Source: Ignavibacteriota bacterium (GTDB lineage Bacteria > Bacteroidota > Ignavibacteria > Tepidaquicellales > Tepidaquicellaceae). Taken from it: 52,479 nt of DNA. The first letter of the stretch is position 1; every line of letters starts with the position of its first letter. A program made the translations under genes and the position numbers. The DNA lies in assembly GCA_020437545.1 (NCBI GenBank), contig JAGQWH010000007.1, forward strand, positions 1 through 52,479. Direction: 5' to 3'. Shown piece by piece: positions 4,205 to 12,591 of this stretch. A model generated the notes under the pieces. It ran no database searches and had not been told where the DNA came from. It was given only the letters and a program-made list of their open reading frames with translations.

Positions 4205-7200
4205 TTATTTAACCACTGCGATCTTGATGATCTCAGTTTCAGTACTGCCGTCAATATCTGCAGAGACAACTCCATAGTAAATTCCGCTTTGTACGTTTGA
4301 TACATCCCACTTAACCTCATTGTCAGCATTCGAATTTACAGTTGCTGTCAAAGTAGTAATCAGCTCACCTGAAAGATCAAGTATTTTTACACTTGCCGTA
4401 GATGCATTTCCGTTAATGTAATATCTGATAAATGTCTGATTATCATAAACAGGATTAGGCCAGTTATATACTTTATCCGAAGGAAGCTTGCCTGAATAAT
4501 TTACAGGGATATTACCTGTCTGGAAATTATTATTTGACAGATATTTATCTTTGAGAAAATTTTTCCATAGTACTTTTCCTGCATTATATTCAACACCTGT
4601 TTTGAAACCATAAAGATATCCGTCTCCGCTCAGCACGACAATTCCAAGACTGTCATTCAAATTAACAATAGCAGGAGTTGAGGTCGTTTTAGGTCCGACA
4701 AGCACAGGGAATCCGGAAAGTATAACACCATTTACACCGTAAGCATATAGGTCTCCGTTTTCAGTCACAAAGATCACATCGTATATATTATCATTATTGA
4801 CATCTGCAACAGAAATACCCGAGGTAATATTTTCATTAAAATCTGCAGGAAAGTTTTCCAGCAATACCCCGGCAAAATTTATGGCAAACACTCTGTCACC
4901 GTCACTGAATAATATTTCCTGTTTACCGTCATTATTTACATCCGCAAGTACAGGAGAATTTGTAATCTCATTAAAATTATAATTAACAATTATTCTCTTG
5001 CCGTTAAGATAAAGTTCGTTATTATTATTGACAATCAACACATCTACAGATGCAGGTGATGTAATATTTCCGGTTACTATAAACTTATTTGTTTCAGTGA
5101 TGAAATTAAAAGTATCACCGGCTGTTTTAGAAAATTGCTGTATTTTTCCGGAAGCAGAATCTACATTAAAGAAAACTCCGTCTGCATTATATTTAATTAT
5201 TTTTCCGTTATTCTTTCCTGCATATACAAAATCAGTCGCTTCGATGGCAAACTGCGGGCAGCTTGACATACCGCTTCCCAGTGAAAAAGCATTTACACCC
5301 AGATTGTTTTTGAATGCAATTCCCGTATCTGATAAAGCGATTACATATTTATGATTTGTCGTAGTATTTGTAGCAGGTATATATTTTCCGTAATTACTGA
5401 GAAACAATCCGTCTGAAGAAGTGGAATCAACAGGATCTCCATTTGCTTTAAATCCATATACATTACCGTTTGAATTGACAAATATTTCTTCACCTGTATC
5501 ACCTGAGTAATCAATACCAATAGGCTGTGAATTTCCGCTTGTGTCCACACCAATATTCTTTGGGAAATTTTTTATCGGACTGAGCTGCGGAATTCCTATG
5601 GATACTCTGAAAGTCATGAGGGTATCTATAACTGAAAAACTGTCTATTGTTATATTGTTATTTGCATTTGAATAACTTAATGAACTCGGATAAGTGGTTG
5701 GACCAAATGAGTTTTGATAGATCGAAGATGGTACTTCATGATATCCCCTGAACCAGTAATCGACCGGTGAACCGTCAGGAGTGATGCTTCCAAACGGTGT
5801 AGAGAAAGTAACTCCGATATCCTGAGCGCCTTTAGCTTCTTCAAGATCCACACCTCTGTGATTAATGTCATTATTAATAGTATTGGAAGAAATTCTTGCA
5901 TCAATTACATTTTCATCTATATGCCAGATAAGAATACCGCCTTTATAATTATTATTTGCATTTATAAGTCCGGGTAAGCTCCAGTCAAATGTTTCAACAT
6001 CAGTAATGTTACCGCTTAATCTGTAAAGACTTGTATAAGAATTCGAATAATAAAATCCGTCTTCAAGATCCTGAGGATAATTTGTCGAATCGAAGAAATT
6101 CCTGTTGTGAGAGTAAATCCTAACACCATTGTTTTCCGGATCGCGATTTCTGTTTTCTATCAGGAAGTATTCCTGACTGCTCATGAGAACTTTGAAAATT
6201 GTTGAATCCCTGCTAATATCTTTTGAGCTTGTAGGAATTTTGAAATTATTAACACCTGTTGAAACTACAACCGGATCAATCCATCCGAGATATATCTTTT
6301 CCCAAGCTGATGGTTCCGGAGGAAAGAATCCATTATAACTGAAAAGAGATTGTCCGTCCATTAATCCAAAACGACCTATAGCTGTTACACCTGTAGAAGT
6401 ATTAAACAGATCAGGAAGTCCGAGATAACTTCCAAAATTTGCAGCAAGTATACCGTTCATTCCAAGTTCAATTAAAAATGTACCTGCAGTAAGATTAAGT
6501 GTCCTGATTTCAGTAGAAGGAATAATCAGAGAATTCTGAATTTCAAATCCATCCTGTGTCTGAAAACCTTCATAAGAGCTTCCGTAAAATTCCTGTAAGT
6601 TTTTTAATCCGAGATAGACGGATGGAATGTCAAATGGCGTCGGATCAAAACCGAATATGGAAGTAAGATCAACATCTCTTCCTACTCCTGCATGAAAAAT
6701 AACAAATGCGGTATTTTCCTTATTGTATCCCGAGAAATTTATAAAACTGTCCGCCCTTGCCCATGAGTCATTGAAAAGTTCACCAAGTTTTATATTTCCT
6801 TCTGTCCTCTGAGGCGAATACTGTTCCATTTTTTTGGGAAGATTGATAACTTCTCCAAAGAGGTCATAGGTTATGTTTGCTTTACCTTTTGAAGCTTTAC
6901 TAAAATAATTCTTCAGAAACTCAAGATGATCAGCAAAATAAGAACTGTCATAAGGAGGAGAATCCACGACCGTATCTTTTCCTGTAGACGGGTCATAATA
7001 AGGACTGCTCAGATCAAACAAACCGTTGCCGCTTGTTCTGGGATCATTATCCTCAACAAACTGTACCATTATTGCAACGACTCTGAATGTATCATTTGTA
7101 TTATCAAATTTTGCCGGTTTCAGGACAGAATTTTCTTTTCCGAATTTTATGGGGTGAGAAAGTTTGTATTGAATATTTTTATCCTGTGAGAATAAAAACC

Positions 7201-7252
7201 CGGAATAAATTGAAATAAATAAAACCAGTAAACATATTTTTTTAAAATCCAT
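4205..7252 (-). CDS. M6-family (immune inhibitor A-like) exported protein, metal site lost, with T9SS sorting domain
   Basis: A 1015-aa secreted protein with a signal peptide (MDFKKICLLVLFISIYSGFLFSQ) and an N-terminal M6-type peptidase domain (about 55-480). FG-GAP/VCBS-like repeats follow (VLADVNNDGKQEILF, VADVNNDNIYDVIFV), then a type A T9SS C-terminal domain beginning NWPNPVYDNQT. The M6 hallmark HExxHxxGxxD is present only as ANFGSYLGLPD at residues 271-281. Both zinc His and the catalytic Glu are replaced, while the Gly, the Asp and the flanking GLPDLF and GRFGLMDGQ are kept. I see no other HExxH in the protein. I infer a secreted pseudoprotease, perhaps binding or structural. It lies downstream of porV after a terminator. 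Confidence 0.85.
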   Translation of the reverse strand: MDFKKICLLVLFISIYSGFLFSQDKNIQYKLSHPIKFGKENSVLKPAKFDNTNDTFRVVAIMVQFVEDNDPRTSGNGLFDLSSPYYDPSTGKDTVVDSPPYDSSYFADHLEFLKNYFSKASKGKANITYDLFGEVINLPKKMEQYSPQRTEGNIKLGELFNDSWARADSFINFSGYNKENTAFVIFHAGVGRDVDLTSIFGFDPTPFDIPSVYLGLKNLQEFYGSSYEGFQTQDGFEIQNSLIIPSTEIRTLNLTAGTFLIELGMNGILAANFGSYLGLPDLFNTSTGVTAIGRFGLMDGQSLFSYNGFFPPEPSAWEKIYLGWIDPVVVSTGVNNFKIPTSSKDISRDSTIFKVLMSSQEYFLIENRNRDPENNGVRIYSHNRNFFDSTNYPQDLEDGFYYSNSYTSLYRLSGNITDVETFDWSLPGLINANNNYKGGILIWHIDENVIDARISSNTINNDINHRGVDLEEAKGAQDIGVTFSTPFGSITPDGSPVDYWFRGYHEVPSSIYQNSFGPTTYPSSLSYSNANNNITIDSFSVIDTLMTFRVSIGIPQLSPIKNFPKNIGVDTSGNSQPIGIDYSGDTGEEIFVNSNGNVYGFKANGDPVDSTSSDGLFLSNYGKYIPATNTTTNHKYVIALSDTGIAFKNNLGVNAFSLGSGMSSCPQFAIEATDFVYAGKNNGKIIKYNADGVFFNVDSASGKIQQFSKTAGDTFNFITETNKFIVTGNITSPASVDVLIVNNNNELYLNGKRIIVNYNFNEITNSPVLADVNNDGKQEILFSDGDRVFAINFAGVLLENFPADFNENITSGISVADVNNDNIYDVIFVTENGDLYAYGVNGVILSGFPVLVGPKTTSTPAIVNLNDSLGIVVLSGDGYLYGFKTGVEYNAGKVLWKNFLKDKYLSNNNFQTGNIPVNYSGKLPSDKVYNWPNPVYDNQTFIRYYINGNASTASVKILDLSGELITTLTATVNSNADNEVKWDVSNVQSGIYYGVVSADIDGSTETEIIKIAVVK

Positions 7253-7271
7253 GCTAAAAATTACATAATAA

Positions 7272-7303
7272 AAACCATAGTTTATAAAAATAAACTATGG
7301 TTT
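7272..7303 (-). terminator. Rho-independent terminator after porV
   Basis: A perfect 13-bp stem (7272-7284 with 7291-7303) has a 6-nt loop. On the minus strand it is followed by a U-rich run (the complement of 7266-7274). It separates the porU-porV unit from the M6-like gene. Confidence 0.8.
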
Positions 7304-7325
7304 GATTTATAAATAAAAATTATTA

Positions 7326-8483
7326 TCAGAAACTAACAAGTAATCCGAATCTTAATGTATTGGCAAGAGGATGTGATTCCTCAATCGTACTAATGTAAGC
7401 AAAATCAAATCCATAAAGATCATATCTGATACCTGCTCCGAGTGTAAAGAAATTCCTGTTACCATATGCAGGATCCTCATAGAAATAACCGCCTCTTAGT
7501 GCAATAAGTCTAGGACTTCCGTACCAGTATTCAGCTCCTATCGAGGTCTGAATAGCGTTTAAACCTCCACCCCATGATGTGAACATTGCTTCATAAAAAG
7601 GATCAACCGAACCCGGAGTACCCGGTACAATAATTACACCGTTACTGTCTACCACATCCGGAGTTGCAAGAGTTCTGTTTACAAGTAGTTTAGCAAAATC
7701 AACTGTAAGTGTAAGTGTATTGAATTGTGATTGAACAACATCATATGCAACACCTGTTCTTAACTGAAACGGAAGCGGATCTGCCTGATCAGCATCTACA
7801 TAGGAAATATTTGGTCCCATGTTAGCTAGCATTGCTCCGAAAGAGAATCTCTTCTGGAAAGTGTTTTTACCTTTGAGAGGTTTGTAAATTGTTGAAAGTC
7901 CAAAGGCAGCTGATATTCCTGTTCCTGTTCCTTTTTCATTTCCAACCGTAAAATCATTTGGGGACAATCTACTGTAAATAAAAGTACCCGTTACTCCGCC
8001 TGACCAGCCTTTTCCTAACTCGGTTGCATATCCTACAGAAAATGCCATCTCATATGCCTTATAATTTCTATCCGGCTGAGCATTACCAAATTCATCAGTA
8101 ACAATAACTTCACCGATATTAAGGTAAGTTAATGAAGCGCCGATAGTTCCGTCAATACTCTTTATATAGGAACGACCTGCTATGTAATCATAAAAAAGAT
8201 CACCGATATTAAGACCTGACAACCAGGGAGAGTGAGTAAAATTGATTTCAGTATATTTTTGCTGATTAGCAAGACCTGCAGGATTCCAGAACATAGCAGT
8301 TGCATCATCTGCAATAGCTGTTCCTGTTTCACCCATGGATCCGAATCTTGAATTTGGACCGATTAATAGGAATGGTACTCCTGTTGACACCGTACTTTGT
8401 GAATAAACATCATTTTTTGATGATGATAACAAAGTTAATAAAACTAAACTTACGCAAAAATATGCGAATGACTTATTGAACAT
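7326..8483 (-). CDS. porV: Type IX secretion outer-membrane protein PorV (PorV/PorQ family)
   Basis: A 385-aa FadL-like outer-membrane barrel. In characterised T9SS, PorV binds the C-terminal signal of cargo and shuttles it from the translocon to the PorU attachment complex. Seen: a signal peptide (MFNKSFAYFCVSLVLLTLLSSSK..YSQ), the family-typical start PFLLIGPNSRFGSMGETGTA with ADDATAMFWNPAGLA, many barrel strands, and an aromatic C-terminus (GLLVSF). It lies 19 nt downstream of porU on the same strand, the order seen in Porphyromonas gingivalis, which strongly supports PorV over the paralogue PorQ. Confidence 0.92.
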   Translation of the reverse strand: MFNKSFAYFCVSLVLLTLLSSSKNDVYSQSTVSTGVPFLLIGPNSRFGSMGETGTAIADDATAMFWNPAGLANQQKYTEINFTHSPWLSGLNIGDLFYDYIAGRSYIKSIDGTIGASLTYLNIGEVIVTDEFGNAQPDRNYKAYEMAFSVGYATELGKGWSGGVTGTFIYSRLSPNDFTVGNEKGTGTGISAAFGLSTIYKPLKGKNTFQKRFSFGAMLANMGPNISYVDADQADPLPFQLRTGVAYDVVQSQFNTLTLTVDFAKLLVNRTLATPDVVDSNGVIIVPGTPGSVDPFYEAMFTSWGGGLNAIQTSIGAEYWYGSPRLIALRGGYFYEDPAYGNRNFFTLGAGIRYDLYGFDFAYISTIEESHPLANTLRFGLLVSF

Positions 8484-8502: not shown

Positions 8503-11500
8503 TTATTTTAATTTTGCTAATTTCCCGGTTGTAGTTTTAGTATAATTACCGTCTTCTGAATTTAATATTAATTTGTATATGTATGTTCCGTTTGCAATAT
8601 AATCGCCGTCATTATCCCTTCCATCCCAATCCAAAGTGACAAATTTATCTCTAATATTGCTTTTATTCAATTCTTTAATTAATCTTCCGGTCACTGTATA
8701 TATGTTAATGGTTGCATTTAGTGTTTCATCAAGATTATGCTCAAATATAAAACTGGTCTGATCCTTCATTGGGTTAGGATAATTATAAACATTTTCCAGT
8801 GCCAGATCATTACTGTTTCTTACATCAAATTCAATGAACGAAGAATTGAAGTTGTTATATGTATCCCAGGCTTTAACTTCGATCTTATAATGTCCATCAG
8901 ATAAATTTGGCAGATCATATTCGACTGAACCATTCTGATAACTGTTACTGCTTTGATAAAATGGCGTTAGATCAATTTTGTTGTTCTGATCTTCATTTAT
9001 AATGGCTTCAATCTTATGACCTATAGTACCGGTAAGATTTAGTCCATTCTCATCACTAAAGTCTGCAATTAATTTTGAGCTTTGATTCACAAGATCACCG
9101 GATCTGAAATTTCTGCTGCCCATATAAATTGTAACGCTTGGTCCTGTAGAATCCGGTACTGCATTTGTATCGATACCGTTCATTATGAAATTATTTGAAT
9201 AACCAATTCCGTCTGACATATTATTCTTAAAGTATGAGAATATTTTCCCTCTGCCCGGACTGTAAGAAATGTCTCTCGGTACTACAAATTCTATTTGCCA
9301 GTTACCGTTTGTAACATTAGTTTTACCGTTATAAATTATACCGCCTAATGTTTTCCAGTTAAATGTGTAACCGAAATCTACATAAGTAATATTCTTATCA
9401 ACATCGTGTATCTGAAGATCAATTGTACCATTATAATCTGACCAGAAAGTAGAATCAGTTCTTAAAACACTTCCCGAGATTTTAACTTTCTGCAATGACT
9501 TCATTTCAAAAAGACTGTCACCCGGGGTACTGTTAATACTGTCTACTTTAGTTCTGTACTGAGGAACTCCAAGTCTTAATGTCGGATCTCCCAGATAAGA
9601 GAATTTGAGATCATTGTCCAGATGTAACTGCTGTTTTACATTAAATATAGCTTTACCCATTCTCAATCTTAATCCAAGTGTATCTGTAAGAAACAGATTA
9701 TCATATAATCTGTTGTTATAAATGGCATTCGGAATACTGTAAACCGGTCTGACTGCTGCAGATATGGCAATTGCACCTTTATCTTTAATTGAAACCAGTT
9801 GTTCGGCAGCGCTTAAATTATAAGGATCATCCCATCTAGCAAGATCACAACTGGCAATGGTTATAAATGGATATTTATCTTTATTGGTTAATTGAGGTAT
9901 AGAAACCTGTCTTTCAAAAATGTGCTCATGTGCCCAGAGGTCAGTACTACCGTGACCTGTATAATTTATTACAAGTCTTCCTTCATTCCAGCTTTTTACA
10001 ATATCTTTATTTACTTCAGGTTTTCTTCTTCCCTGAGGCGTAATTTCCGAAGGATAATTTACGATATATATCTTCTGTTTTTTAATGTAGTCAGGAGAAT
10101 GATTCTGAGAAACATCTTCACACTGGTCTGTGTGAAGACTGCCTTCCTGACCGTTTGCCTGCTCGGTTGTCCAGCCGTCATCAGCTATGTAAGTAGCCAC
10201 CTGTCTCCATTTATCAAAGTTAGCAGGGTTTTCATAGCTTATAACTTTTTCGATATAGTTGTTTGCTTCTTCCAGTGTATTTACTGGCATTCTTCCGGTT
10301 GCAAAGTCAGAAACACTGGAACCGCCCGGAGCTTCATAGCTTTCATTGATCTCAACAAGGAAATCATCAGAACAATAACTGTCTACATCATTTGAATAAG
10401 GGGAATTTTTTTCAACGGGTAGTATCCAGTTTTTTACAGCACCGTTATAAAGATTATATATGTTCTTATAATCATAACTTCCGTCTCCCATAAATGCTAC
10501 ATAAACAGGTCTTTCTTCAAAATTTTCATAAGCATATTTCAAAAAATTCCTTACAGCAAGAGGATCCTGCATTCCGTTGGAGAATTCATTGTAAATTTCT
10601 TCAATATCAATAACAGATGTCTTTATATAATTCTGACCCGGTTTTTCTCTTTGCGCCTTAAGGTTATTTGAGGCAGACATGAATTCTTTCGGAGAAATTA
10701 TAAAGAAACTGCCTCCCTGAGCAAGTTCACCTTTTAAATTCTGGTTAGGCACTCTTCCCGAAATTGACACAGGTGAGAAATAATTATTACTTCCTATTGC
10801 GTAAAATTCTTTTGGATCACCGGCAATTATTTCTGATTGAAATTTAACTGTTCCGTTGGAATATGAAATTGGGTTGATAATATTTACATTTGTCTGATCC
10901 GATACATCAAATATTTTTAAATCCTGCGAATTAAAATTATTTATCTGAAACTCAACGGTACCGTTGGTATCAGGTGAGTTGAATCTAAGCAGGTTATTGT
11001 CTGCTGAAAAATTTCTGTCATAAAGTAATTCCATGTAATCATAATATCCTGCAACATTTGGTGAATTTCCATCCTGTGATCTTAGAGACGCCCTGAAATT
11101 AATGCTGCTTTTTCCGGGAGTCAGAGGATAATTTACCCCATTAATATTTTCATTCATATGTACCAGATTAATATGAGAAAATCCGTCATAGATCTGAGAG
11201 ACATACTGATTCATAATAAATCCTGAGTTCAGGTCTTCGAGCCGCCATGTTTCAGGAAAGAATGATCCGTTACCAAACCTGAATCTGAGGTTAACATTGC
11301 TTCCGCTTATGTAACCTTTCAATTCTTTATTAAAACTAAAACTTTCATTAACACTGATCCTCTGGCTTACCCACAACAATCCGGTAGATCCGAGATTATT
11401 GACTTCCGGCTCTTCATAAAGTCTGTCTTTGAATTTACTTACAGGGTTAAGTCCCTGAATATTCGGAGAATTCTGAAGCTCCATCCTCAAACCATCGGCC

Positions 11501-12591
11501 CCTCCATATGTGATCCAGTAATAATTTACTTTTGAATAATGATTTATTACATGTCTGTATGTTTTACTAATTGAATCATATTCCCAGTCATTAGGGCTTC
11601 TTCCATAGAAAAGGATATAATCATTATCATTGAATTGACCATCATTTTCACCTTCTACAAAGATCCTGTTTTCAAGAAGATCAACAGGTGCAAATTTCAT
11701 ATTATCATATGGAAGTTCAGCTCCGCCGTTTCCATAAATTTTAATTGTTTTGGGATTTATACCGGCGGTATTTATACCTGCATTCTGAAGGATATTCCTG
11801 TCAAGTTTATATATTCCTGATTCTTTAACTTCTATTTTATAAAAATCACCGCTTTGCAATACACTGTTCATAACGCCTCTGTCCTTTACGGAATTGAACT
11901 CAATTGTTGACCAATTCTCTGCCTGAGGTGAATTTATTGCAATATTATGGAAATAGGATCTCTCTTCACCGCTGAGTGACTTGTTGAGATAAATTGGATT
12001 ACTGCCGAATTTCACTCTTACTTTAAGATATGAATACTTTTTCAATGTCCTTGTAACAGGGTTGTATTGTAAGGGATAAATATTAAGATTACCAATATAT
12101 CTGTTTCTTAACGCACCGATAGTATTGATAGCGGCTAAATATCCGGGGAAAACTTTATTTGTGCTGTATACTTTCTGGTTTTCTGTAAAAACCGGAATAT
12201 ATCCTTCTTTATCTTTTGAATTTTTAATGGTAGGGACAGGTAGAACATCAACATTCTGAACTTCAACATACCTTGAATCAATAACTTCTGCAGAATTTCC
12301 GTTGGTTCCGGGAAAGAAAACAGGAAAAGTTCTGAATAATATATCCGGATCTCCGTAATTACTTACATTTGAAACTGAATTATTAAAATCAAGATCACCT
12401 TTATAGTCAGGTGTAAATTCAATTTCAATATAGGATTCGTTCGAAGACAGAATAGTATAATCAGACAGTACTTTAGTTTCCTTTTTTTCAACTCTTTGTG
12501 CAAATCCGGAAGTTACAAACAAAAAAACGAGAATGAGGTTAAATAGAATTACCCTTATATTTTTTTGTTTATTTATAATGTTTTTATTCAT
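8503..12591 (-). CDS. porU: Type IX secretion signal peptidase PorU (C25 gingipain-like)
   Basis: A 1362-aa cell-surface cysteine peptidase. PorU removes the C-terminal sorting signal from T9SS cargo and transfers cargo to the surface anchor. Seen: a signal peptide (about 1-32, ending SGFAQ), a long N-terminal beta region, and a C25 domain with both catalytic residues: His880 in NYTGHGS and Cys915 in ASCDLARWDDP. Their 35-residue spacing is close to that of gingipain R. A type A sorting-like C-terminal domain (YNYPNPMKDQTSF...) ends the protein, as in known PorU. The length is typical for the family. It heads a two-gene unit with porV, and the 288 nt upstream is non-coding and probably holds its promoter. 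Confidence 0.94.
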   Translation of the reverse strand: MNKNIINKQKNIRVILFNLILVFLFVTSGFAQRVEKKETKVLSDYTILSSNESYIEIEFTPDYKGDLDFNNSVSNVSNYGDPDILFRTFPVFFPGTNGNSAEVIDSRYVEVQNVDVLPVPTIKNSKDKEGYIPVFTENQKVYSTNKVFPGYLAAINTIGALRNRYIGNLNIYPLQYNPVTRTLKKYSYLKVRVKFGSNPIYLNKSLSGEERSYFHNIAINSPQAENWSTIEFNSVKDRGVMNSVLQSGDFYKIEVKESGIYKLDRNILQNAGINTAGINPKTIKIYGNGGAELPYDNMKFAPVDLLENRIFVEGENDGQFNDNDYILFYGRSPNDWEYDSISKTYRHVINHYSKVNYYWITYGGADGLRMELQNSPNIQGLNPVSKFKDRLYEEPEVNNLGSTGLLWVSQRISVNESFSFNKELKGYISGSNVNLRFRFGNGSFFPETWRLEDLNSGFIMNQYVSQIYDGFSHINLVHMNENINGVNYPLTPGKSSINFRASLRSQDGNSPNVAGYYDYMELLYDRNFSADNNLLRFNSPDTNGTVEFQINNFNSQDLKIFDVSDQTNVNIINPISYSNGTVKFQSEIIAGDPKEFYAIGSNNYFSPVSISGRVPNQNLKGELAQGGSFFIISPKEFMSASNNLKAQREKPGQNYIKTSVIDIEEIYNEFSNGMQDPLAVRNFLKYAYENFEERPVYVAFMGDGSYDYKNIYNLYNGAVKNWILPVEKNSPYSNDVDSYCSDDFLVEINESYEAPGGSSVSDFATGRMPVNTLEEANNYIEKVISYENPANFDKWRQVATYIADDGWTTEQANGQEGSLHTDQCEDVSQNHSPDYIKKQKIYIVNYPSEITPQGRRKPEVNKDIVKSWNEGRLVINYTGHGSTDLWAHEHIFERQVSIPQLTNKDKYPFITIASCDLARWDDPYNLSAAEQLVSIKDKGAIAISAAVRPVYSIPNAIYNNRLYDNLFLTDTLGLRLRMGKAIFNVKQQLHLDNDLKFSYLGDPTLRLGVPQYRTKVDSINSTPGDSLFEMKSLQKVKISGSVLRTDSTFWSDYNGTIDLQIHDVDKNITYVDFGYTFNWKTLGGIIYNGKTNVTNGNWQIEFVVPRDISYSPGRGKIFSYFKNNMSDGIGYSNNFIMNGIDTNAVPDSTGPSVTIYMGSRNFRSGDLVNQSSKLIADFSDENGLNLTGTIGHKIEAIINEDQNNKIDLTPFYQSSNSYQNGSVEYDLPNLSDGHYKIEVKAWDTYNNFNSSFIEFDVRNSNDLALENVYNYPNPMKDQTSFIFEHNLDETLNATINIYTVTGRLIKELNKSNIRDKFVTLDWDGRDNDGDYIANGTYIYKLILNSEDGNYTKTTTGKLAKLK

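Follow-up and report, generated by a model that had tools for sequence, protein, structure and literature searches.

An M6-like protein with an erased metal site, encoded beside porU and porV in Ignavibacteria, as a candidate non-catalytic partner of T9SS sorting

What is known of the type IX secretion system (T9SS) comes almost entirely from Porphyromonas and Flavobacterium. As members of the attachment complex, PorQ and PorZ have been characterized in Bacteroidia, which are distant from Ignavibacteria. In P. gingivalis, PorU and PorV form a complex, and PorU, PorV, PorQ, and PorZ constitute the attachment complex; PorV recognizes or receives type A CTD substrates in species other than the present one (PMC5562754, PMC12618676). 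PorZ of P. gingivalis (PDB 5m11) is a surface protein that features propellers and a CTD and is functionally tied to PorU/PorV (PMC5562754). Immune inhibitor A (family M6; PF05547, structures 4yu5/4yu6) is among the known proteins closest to the one described here. A family of inactivated M6 homologues is already catalogued as NCBIfam NF052323 (T9SSA_dep_M6i, “T9SS-dependent M6-like inactivated metalloprotease”). An earlier note on the present DNA, made from the sequence alone, had implied that its pseudoprotease was novel; that implication does not hold, because NCBI curators had already recognized the inactivation. The entry gives no function, and a literature search found no paper on the family or its function. 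Gene order and structure come from the present analysis, which adds the depth of the link to porU-porV and the identification of the former catalytic face as the most constrained part of the protein.

The DNA analyzed (“the window”, 52,479 nucleotides of contig JAGQWH010000007.1) belongs to a 4.29-Mb genome whose closest named relatives are uncultured Ignavibacteria. The coordinates of the locus are collected in Table 1. The genes run on the minus strand in the order porU, porV, M6i, with intergenic gaps of 19 bases (porU-porV) and 73 bases (porV-M6i). PorU retains TGHG (His880) and ASC (Cys915), i.e. the expected His and Cys.

Table 1. Features of the M6i locus, in window coordinates
Feature	Coordinates	Strand	Basis or remark
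M6i gene	4205..7252	-	1015 aa; NCBIfam NF052323, 822 bits vs. cut-off 600
Signal peptide, M6i residues about 1-23	7184..7252	-	hydrophobic helix 3-20 in model; sequence
M6-like (pseudo)catalytic domain, residues about 51-480	5813..7102	-	InhA2 4yu5, Z 22.0
Erased metal site, M6i residues 271-281, ANFGSYLGLPD replacing HExxHxxGxxD	6410..6442	-	alignment
Met-turn-like segment RFGLMDG, M6i residues 294-300, retained	6353..6373	-	alignment
8-bladed beta-propeller (predicted), M6i residues 554-886	4595..5593	-	Cake8 propeller Z 27.0; BamB about Z 24
T9SS type A sorting domain (CTD), M6i residues 924-1015	4208..4483	-	PF18962 E 8.3e-9; TIGR04183 E 2.8e-6
porV, T9SS outer-membrane shuttle, directly upstream of M6i	7326..8483	-	NF033710, 265.8 bits vs. 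cut-off 250
porU, T9SS sortase	8503..12591	-	NF033707, 928.8 bits vs. cut-off 420

M6i was matched to NF052323 over residues 18-1015 (profile positions 11-1043 of 1043; 822.3 bits against a cut-off of 600; E 6.5e-247). It has lost HExxH and ends in a C-terminal type A sorting domain (TIGR04183, 27.2 bits against a cut-off of 23), and it shares the domain plan, the inactivation, and the T9SS tail of that family with no difference in kind. The signal peptide, propeller, and T9SS tail described in the earlier note were all present. The M6-domain profile TIGR03296 matched residues 273-370 (E 8.5e-20) at 71.8 bits, below its cut-off of 110.8, and PF05547 gave no match to the protein at E 0.1. Judged by the E values of NF052323 and TIGR03296, the kinship with M6 is not fortuitous. 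A whole-protein PDB profile search returned weak propeller matches only. The M6 domain was folded alone because a fold search with the whole model was filled by propellers. The resulting model (residues 48-550, 503 aa; pLDDT 91.1, pTM 0.93), a check that had been proposed with the original claim, superposed on the InhA2 zymogen 4yu5 with a Z of 22.0 over 377 residues (rmsd 3.6 Å), and the next entry had a Z of 9.6. The erased motif forms part of helix 266-276 in the full-length model (pLDDT 88.2).

M6i therefore has the predicted fold of an active, InhA-type M6 protease without the HExxHxxGxxD site. Its likeness to Immune inhibitor A comprises the catalytic-domain fold, the GxxD, and the Met-turn-like segment; it differs in lacking both zinc histidines, the Glu, and the part of the zymogen that precedes residue 156, and in having a propeller and a T9SS tail in addition. 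The alignment to the InhA2 zymogen starts at InhA2 residue 156, and nothing in M6i matches the earlier part, which we take to be an inhibitory propeptide. Residues 26-50, between the signal peptide and the domain, are short (~25 residues), variable, and poorly modelled. Where there is no activity to inhibit, a propeptide would be superfluous, and this arrangement lends support to an inactive M6i.

The earlier note had placed an erased metal site at 6412-6442. The substitution itself was borne out, as was the upper coordinate; the lower one was two bases off (Table 1). In an alignment with intact-site M6 proteins of the same class, which read HEYGHIFGLPDLYD, HEMGHSVFGLPDVYD, and HEFGHIFGLPDLYD, the M6i row reads ANFGS-YLGLPDLFN. 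The Met-turn-like segment and the EYFLIENR segment of M6i also align with those three proteins; RFGLMDG falls opposite WCLMAGG/WSLMAGG of active M6, and M298 is nearly invariant. Among the 110 class orthologues with data, position 271 (the first His) was occupied by A in 81, S in 15, G in 12, and N in 2, position 272 (the Glu) by S in 56, N in 31, T in 17, M in 4, A in 1, and C in 1, and position 275 (the second His) by S in 103 and N in 7. G278 and D281 were present in 110/110. In 42 more proteins from outside the class, read off alignments, the first position was Ala, the second S/N/Q/T, and the third S/N/G. The pattern first described for one protein, i.e. loss of His, Glu, and His with retention of Gly278 and Asp281, thus recurred in every one of the 152 relatives read, whether or not they belong to the class, and the suggested check for a clade-wide change in Ignavibacteria revealed a loss common to relatives in the class and the phylum. 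An intact HExxH elsewhere in the fold, which would have spoken against the claim, was sought in 114 aligned proteins; none was found, be it in M6i itself or in the 110 aligned class orthologues. A stray HEMAH in L150 is most likely due to chance; the site position is erased there as well.

A tree of the M6 domain was calculated with the three catalytic columns masked. It separated all 38 M6i proteins from 6 paralogues with an HE-type site at 100% support, which applies to the unrooted split; long branches limit statements on which active M6 is closest. The split is consistent with one ancestral inactivation. M6i almost certainly does not act as an M6-type zinc protease, and we regard the pseudo-enzyme part of the reading as firm. 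Enzymatic activity by other chemistry, or a metal held by other residues, is very improbable. His187, Asp281, Glu366, and Asp446, the residues that might serve such a site, vary little or not at all within the class. However, the counterparts of His187, Asp281, and mostly Glu366 occur in intact-site M6 proteins too, where they may be structural, and the first His and the Glu positions vary among small residues, unlike those of a working site.

The close relative L062, a 97%-identical protein from another genome, was used to examine selection. At a dS of about 0.7, dN/dS (omega) was 0.022 overall, and residues 250-330 differed by 34 synonymous changes and 0 amino-acid changes. This comparison excludes a sequencing error in the stretch, the other outcome that would have undone the claim. 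A decaying pseudogene was likewise ruled out by it, together with the intact frames and the erased site in relatives. Split M6i frames (several frames, or stop codons) were observed in two relatives, G004 (contig C47, 127589-130587) and G005 (contig C250); these represent assembly error or decay.

The mean majority share was highest at residues 255-330 (0.73), followed by the CTD (0.61) and residues 51-250 (0.54), and was lowest in the propeller (0.35). The strongest constraint thus lies on the former active-site face, in agreement with a binding or structural task that has been kept. Over the same 31 loci, the mean conservation of M6i was 0.459 vs. 0.469 for PorU (CTDs, 0.589 vs. 0.630); this nearness is weakly in keeping with a part of the machine, the sortase being the one protein compared.

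The operon-like neighborhood of M6i was conserved to a considerable depth. Of the named Ignavibacteria loci, those with 700 or more bases upstream had porV there on the same strand in 70/70 cases, and those with 2500 or more had porU there in 63/63; the loci were found via M6i, and the counts describe the neighbors of M6i, not how often porU-porV is accompanied by M6i. In 20 loci from outside the class, porV adjoined M6i in 19, and porU-porV-M6i was contiguous in 14. Tandem PorU genes (two) were observed upstream of porV-M6i in some relatives: G092 (contig C140), G256 (contig C47), and L117.

M6i exceeded its cut-off in 194/294 class genomes and in 90/247 from a phylum-wide draw, with families outside the class represented. 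PorU was found at E <= 1e-60 in 193 of the 194 class genomes with M6i over cut-off, the exception being 67% complete. PorU exceeded its own cut-off in 281/294 class genomes vs. 194 for M6i, and M6i is accordingly not present wherever PorU is: it was under cut-off or absent in approximately one third of class genomes, most of which still had PorU. Thirteen M6i-less class loci were examined; all had porV, 12 had porU beside it, and the M6i slot was empty. An obligate core part of the T9SS is ruled out by these loci. In a PorU tree, 11 of 12 PorU sequences from M6i-less genomes grouped together and one lay elsewhere, and, judged from these sequences, the presence of M6i follows lineage, M6i having been lost or being absent at least twice. 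In one class genome (G182, 96% complete), PorU, PorV, and M6i were all below the thresholds used, and genomes of the same family have PorU and M6i; G182 has probably lost the whole sorting module.

The best explanation of these data, and one that we favor slightly, is that M6i, rather than being a protease, serves T9SS sorting at the surface without catalysis, as a component of the machinery or as its partner. That it acts with PorU/PorV, as gene order and conservation suggest, we consider an even proposition. More tentatively, M6i may be a subunit of the PorU-PorV sorting complex that has no catalytic activity and occurs lineage-wide, both in Ignavibacteria and in other lineages of the phylum that are not models; an ancient secreted protease would then have been converted into a scaffold, or into a part that guides substrates, within a secretion machine. 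Linkage to porU and porV was found, and linkage alone does not define membership in the attachment complex. The earlier note had proposed a selected pseudoprotease encoded beside porU-porV, and the class- and phylum-wide loss of the site, the strong purifying selection, and the conserved gene order all agree with it. It had left adhesin, inhibitor, and scaffold unseparated; of these, a T9SS-associated structural or binding role appears to be favored, and a free adhesin or inhibitor less so.

Under the favored explanation, M6i would be a pseudopeptidase in which an M6 fold that cannot bind catalytic zinc in the customary manner is combined with a propeller and a type A tail. It would be produced along with PorU and PorV. 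From what is known of these families, it would cross the inner membrane via its signal peptide and the outer membrane through the T9SS, whereupon PorV would receive it. It would then remain on the cell surface and bind proteins there without catalysis, either as a component of the PorU-PorV sorting machinery or as its dedicated partner, with the propeller and the pseudo-active-site face as binding surfaces. A pseudoprotease fixed beside sortase and shuttle genes in lineages other than the two model genera points to a component missing from T9SS models, and M6i offers a clear example of how a protease fold can be retained over a very long evolutionary span for work other than catalysis.

The main rival to a machinery role is that M6i is plain T9SS cargo, i.e. 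a surface adhesin or polymer-binding protein carried by PorV and anchored by PorU, with the gene order reflecting co-expression only. We deem this possible and rather unlikely. M6i does carry the type A CTD and signal peptide of a cargo protein, and its propeller is a common binding fold and its least conserved domain, as expected for variable binding. Related lineages manage without M6i; most of the class genomes with M6i absent or under cut-off keep PorU, so M6i is not needed for the T9SS in general, and the gene order may reflect nothing beyond co-regulation of an abundant cargo. However, that order was kept across the phylum and in 63/63 loci, M6i was conserved to the same degree as the sortase, with the conservation concentrated at the former active site, and there was no sign of expansion (one place over cut-off per genome, among the matches listed).

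M6i resembles PorZ in combining a propeller with a CTD. The Foldseek match of M6i to 5m11 was poor (TM 0.19), and to our knowledge PorZ has no M6 domain. Replacement of PorZ by M6i was ruled out, since the host genome has a separate PorZ-type protein (PF21544, 53.7 bits).

Alternatively, the pseudo-active site could bind a peptide (e.g. a CTD or an M6 propeptide) and thereby tune PorU or an active M6 protease, or report secretion status. A precedent for such reporting is described for PorA in P. gingivalis, which is reported to signal secretion status to PorXY-SigP (PMC7712824). The conservation of the cleft region points to a binding face, and M6 paralogues that have HExxH and T9SS-type tails are encoded in the host genome. 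The linkage seen was to porU-porV, however, with none to M6 protease genes, and we consider a regulator or inhibitor improbable.

Among the M6 paralogues of the host, L141, L145, and L146 keep HExxH. L143 (host contig C73, about 7255-7959) is an M6-type paralogue with a T9SS-type tail and has HEFGEHYTYGAG at the HExxH place; it may be altered at the metal site, too.

In the CTD of M6i, the motif around residue 931 (window 4460-4462) is usually YNWPNP, with Trp in 84 and Tyr in 24 class rows and Trp in 19/21 phylum rows. PorU and other T9SS tails at the same loci mostly have Tyr at the matching position. The Trp could mark special handling of the M6i tail.

Four PorU2-like proteins (L199-L202) are encoded on host contigs C1, C288, C45, and C321. 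They scored 369-392 bits, under the NF052324 cut-off of 450; in addition to PorU, several sortase-like C25 proteins seem to be encoded by the host.
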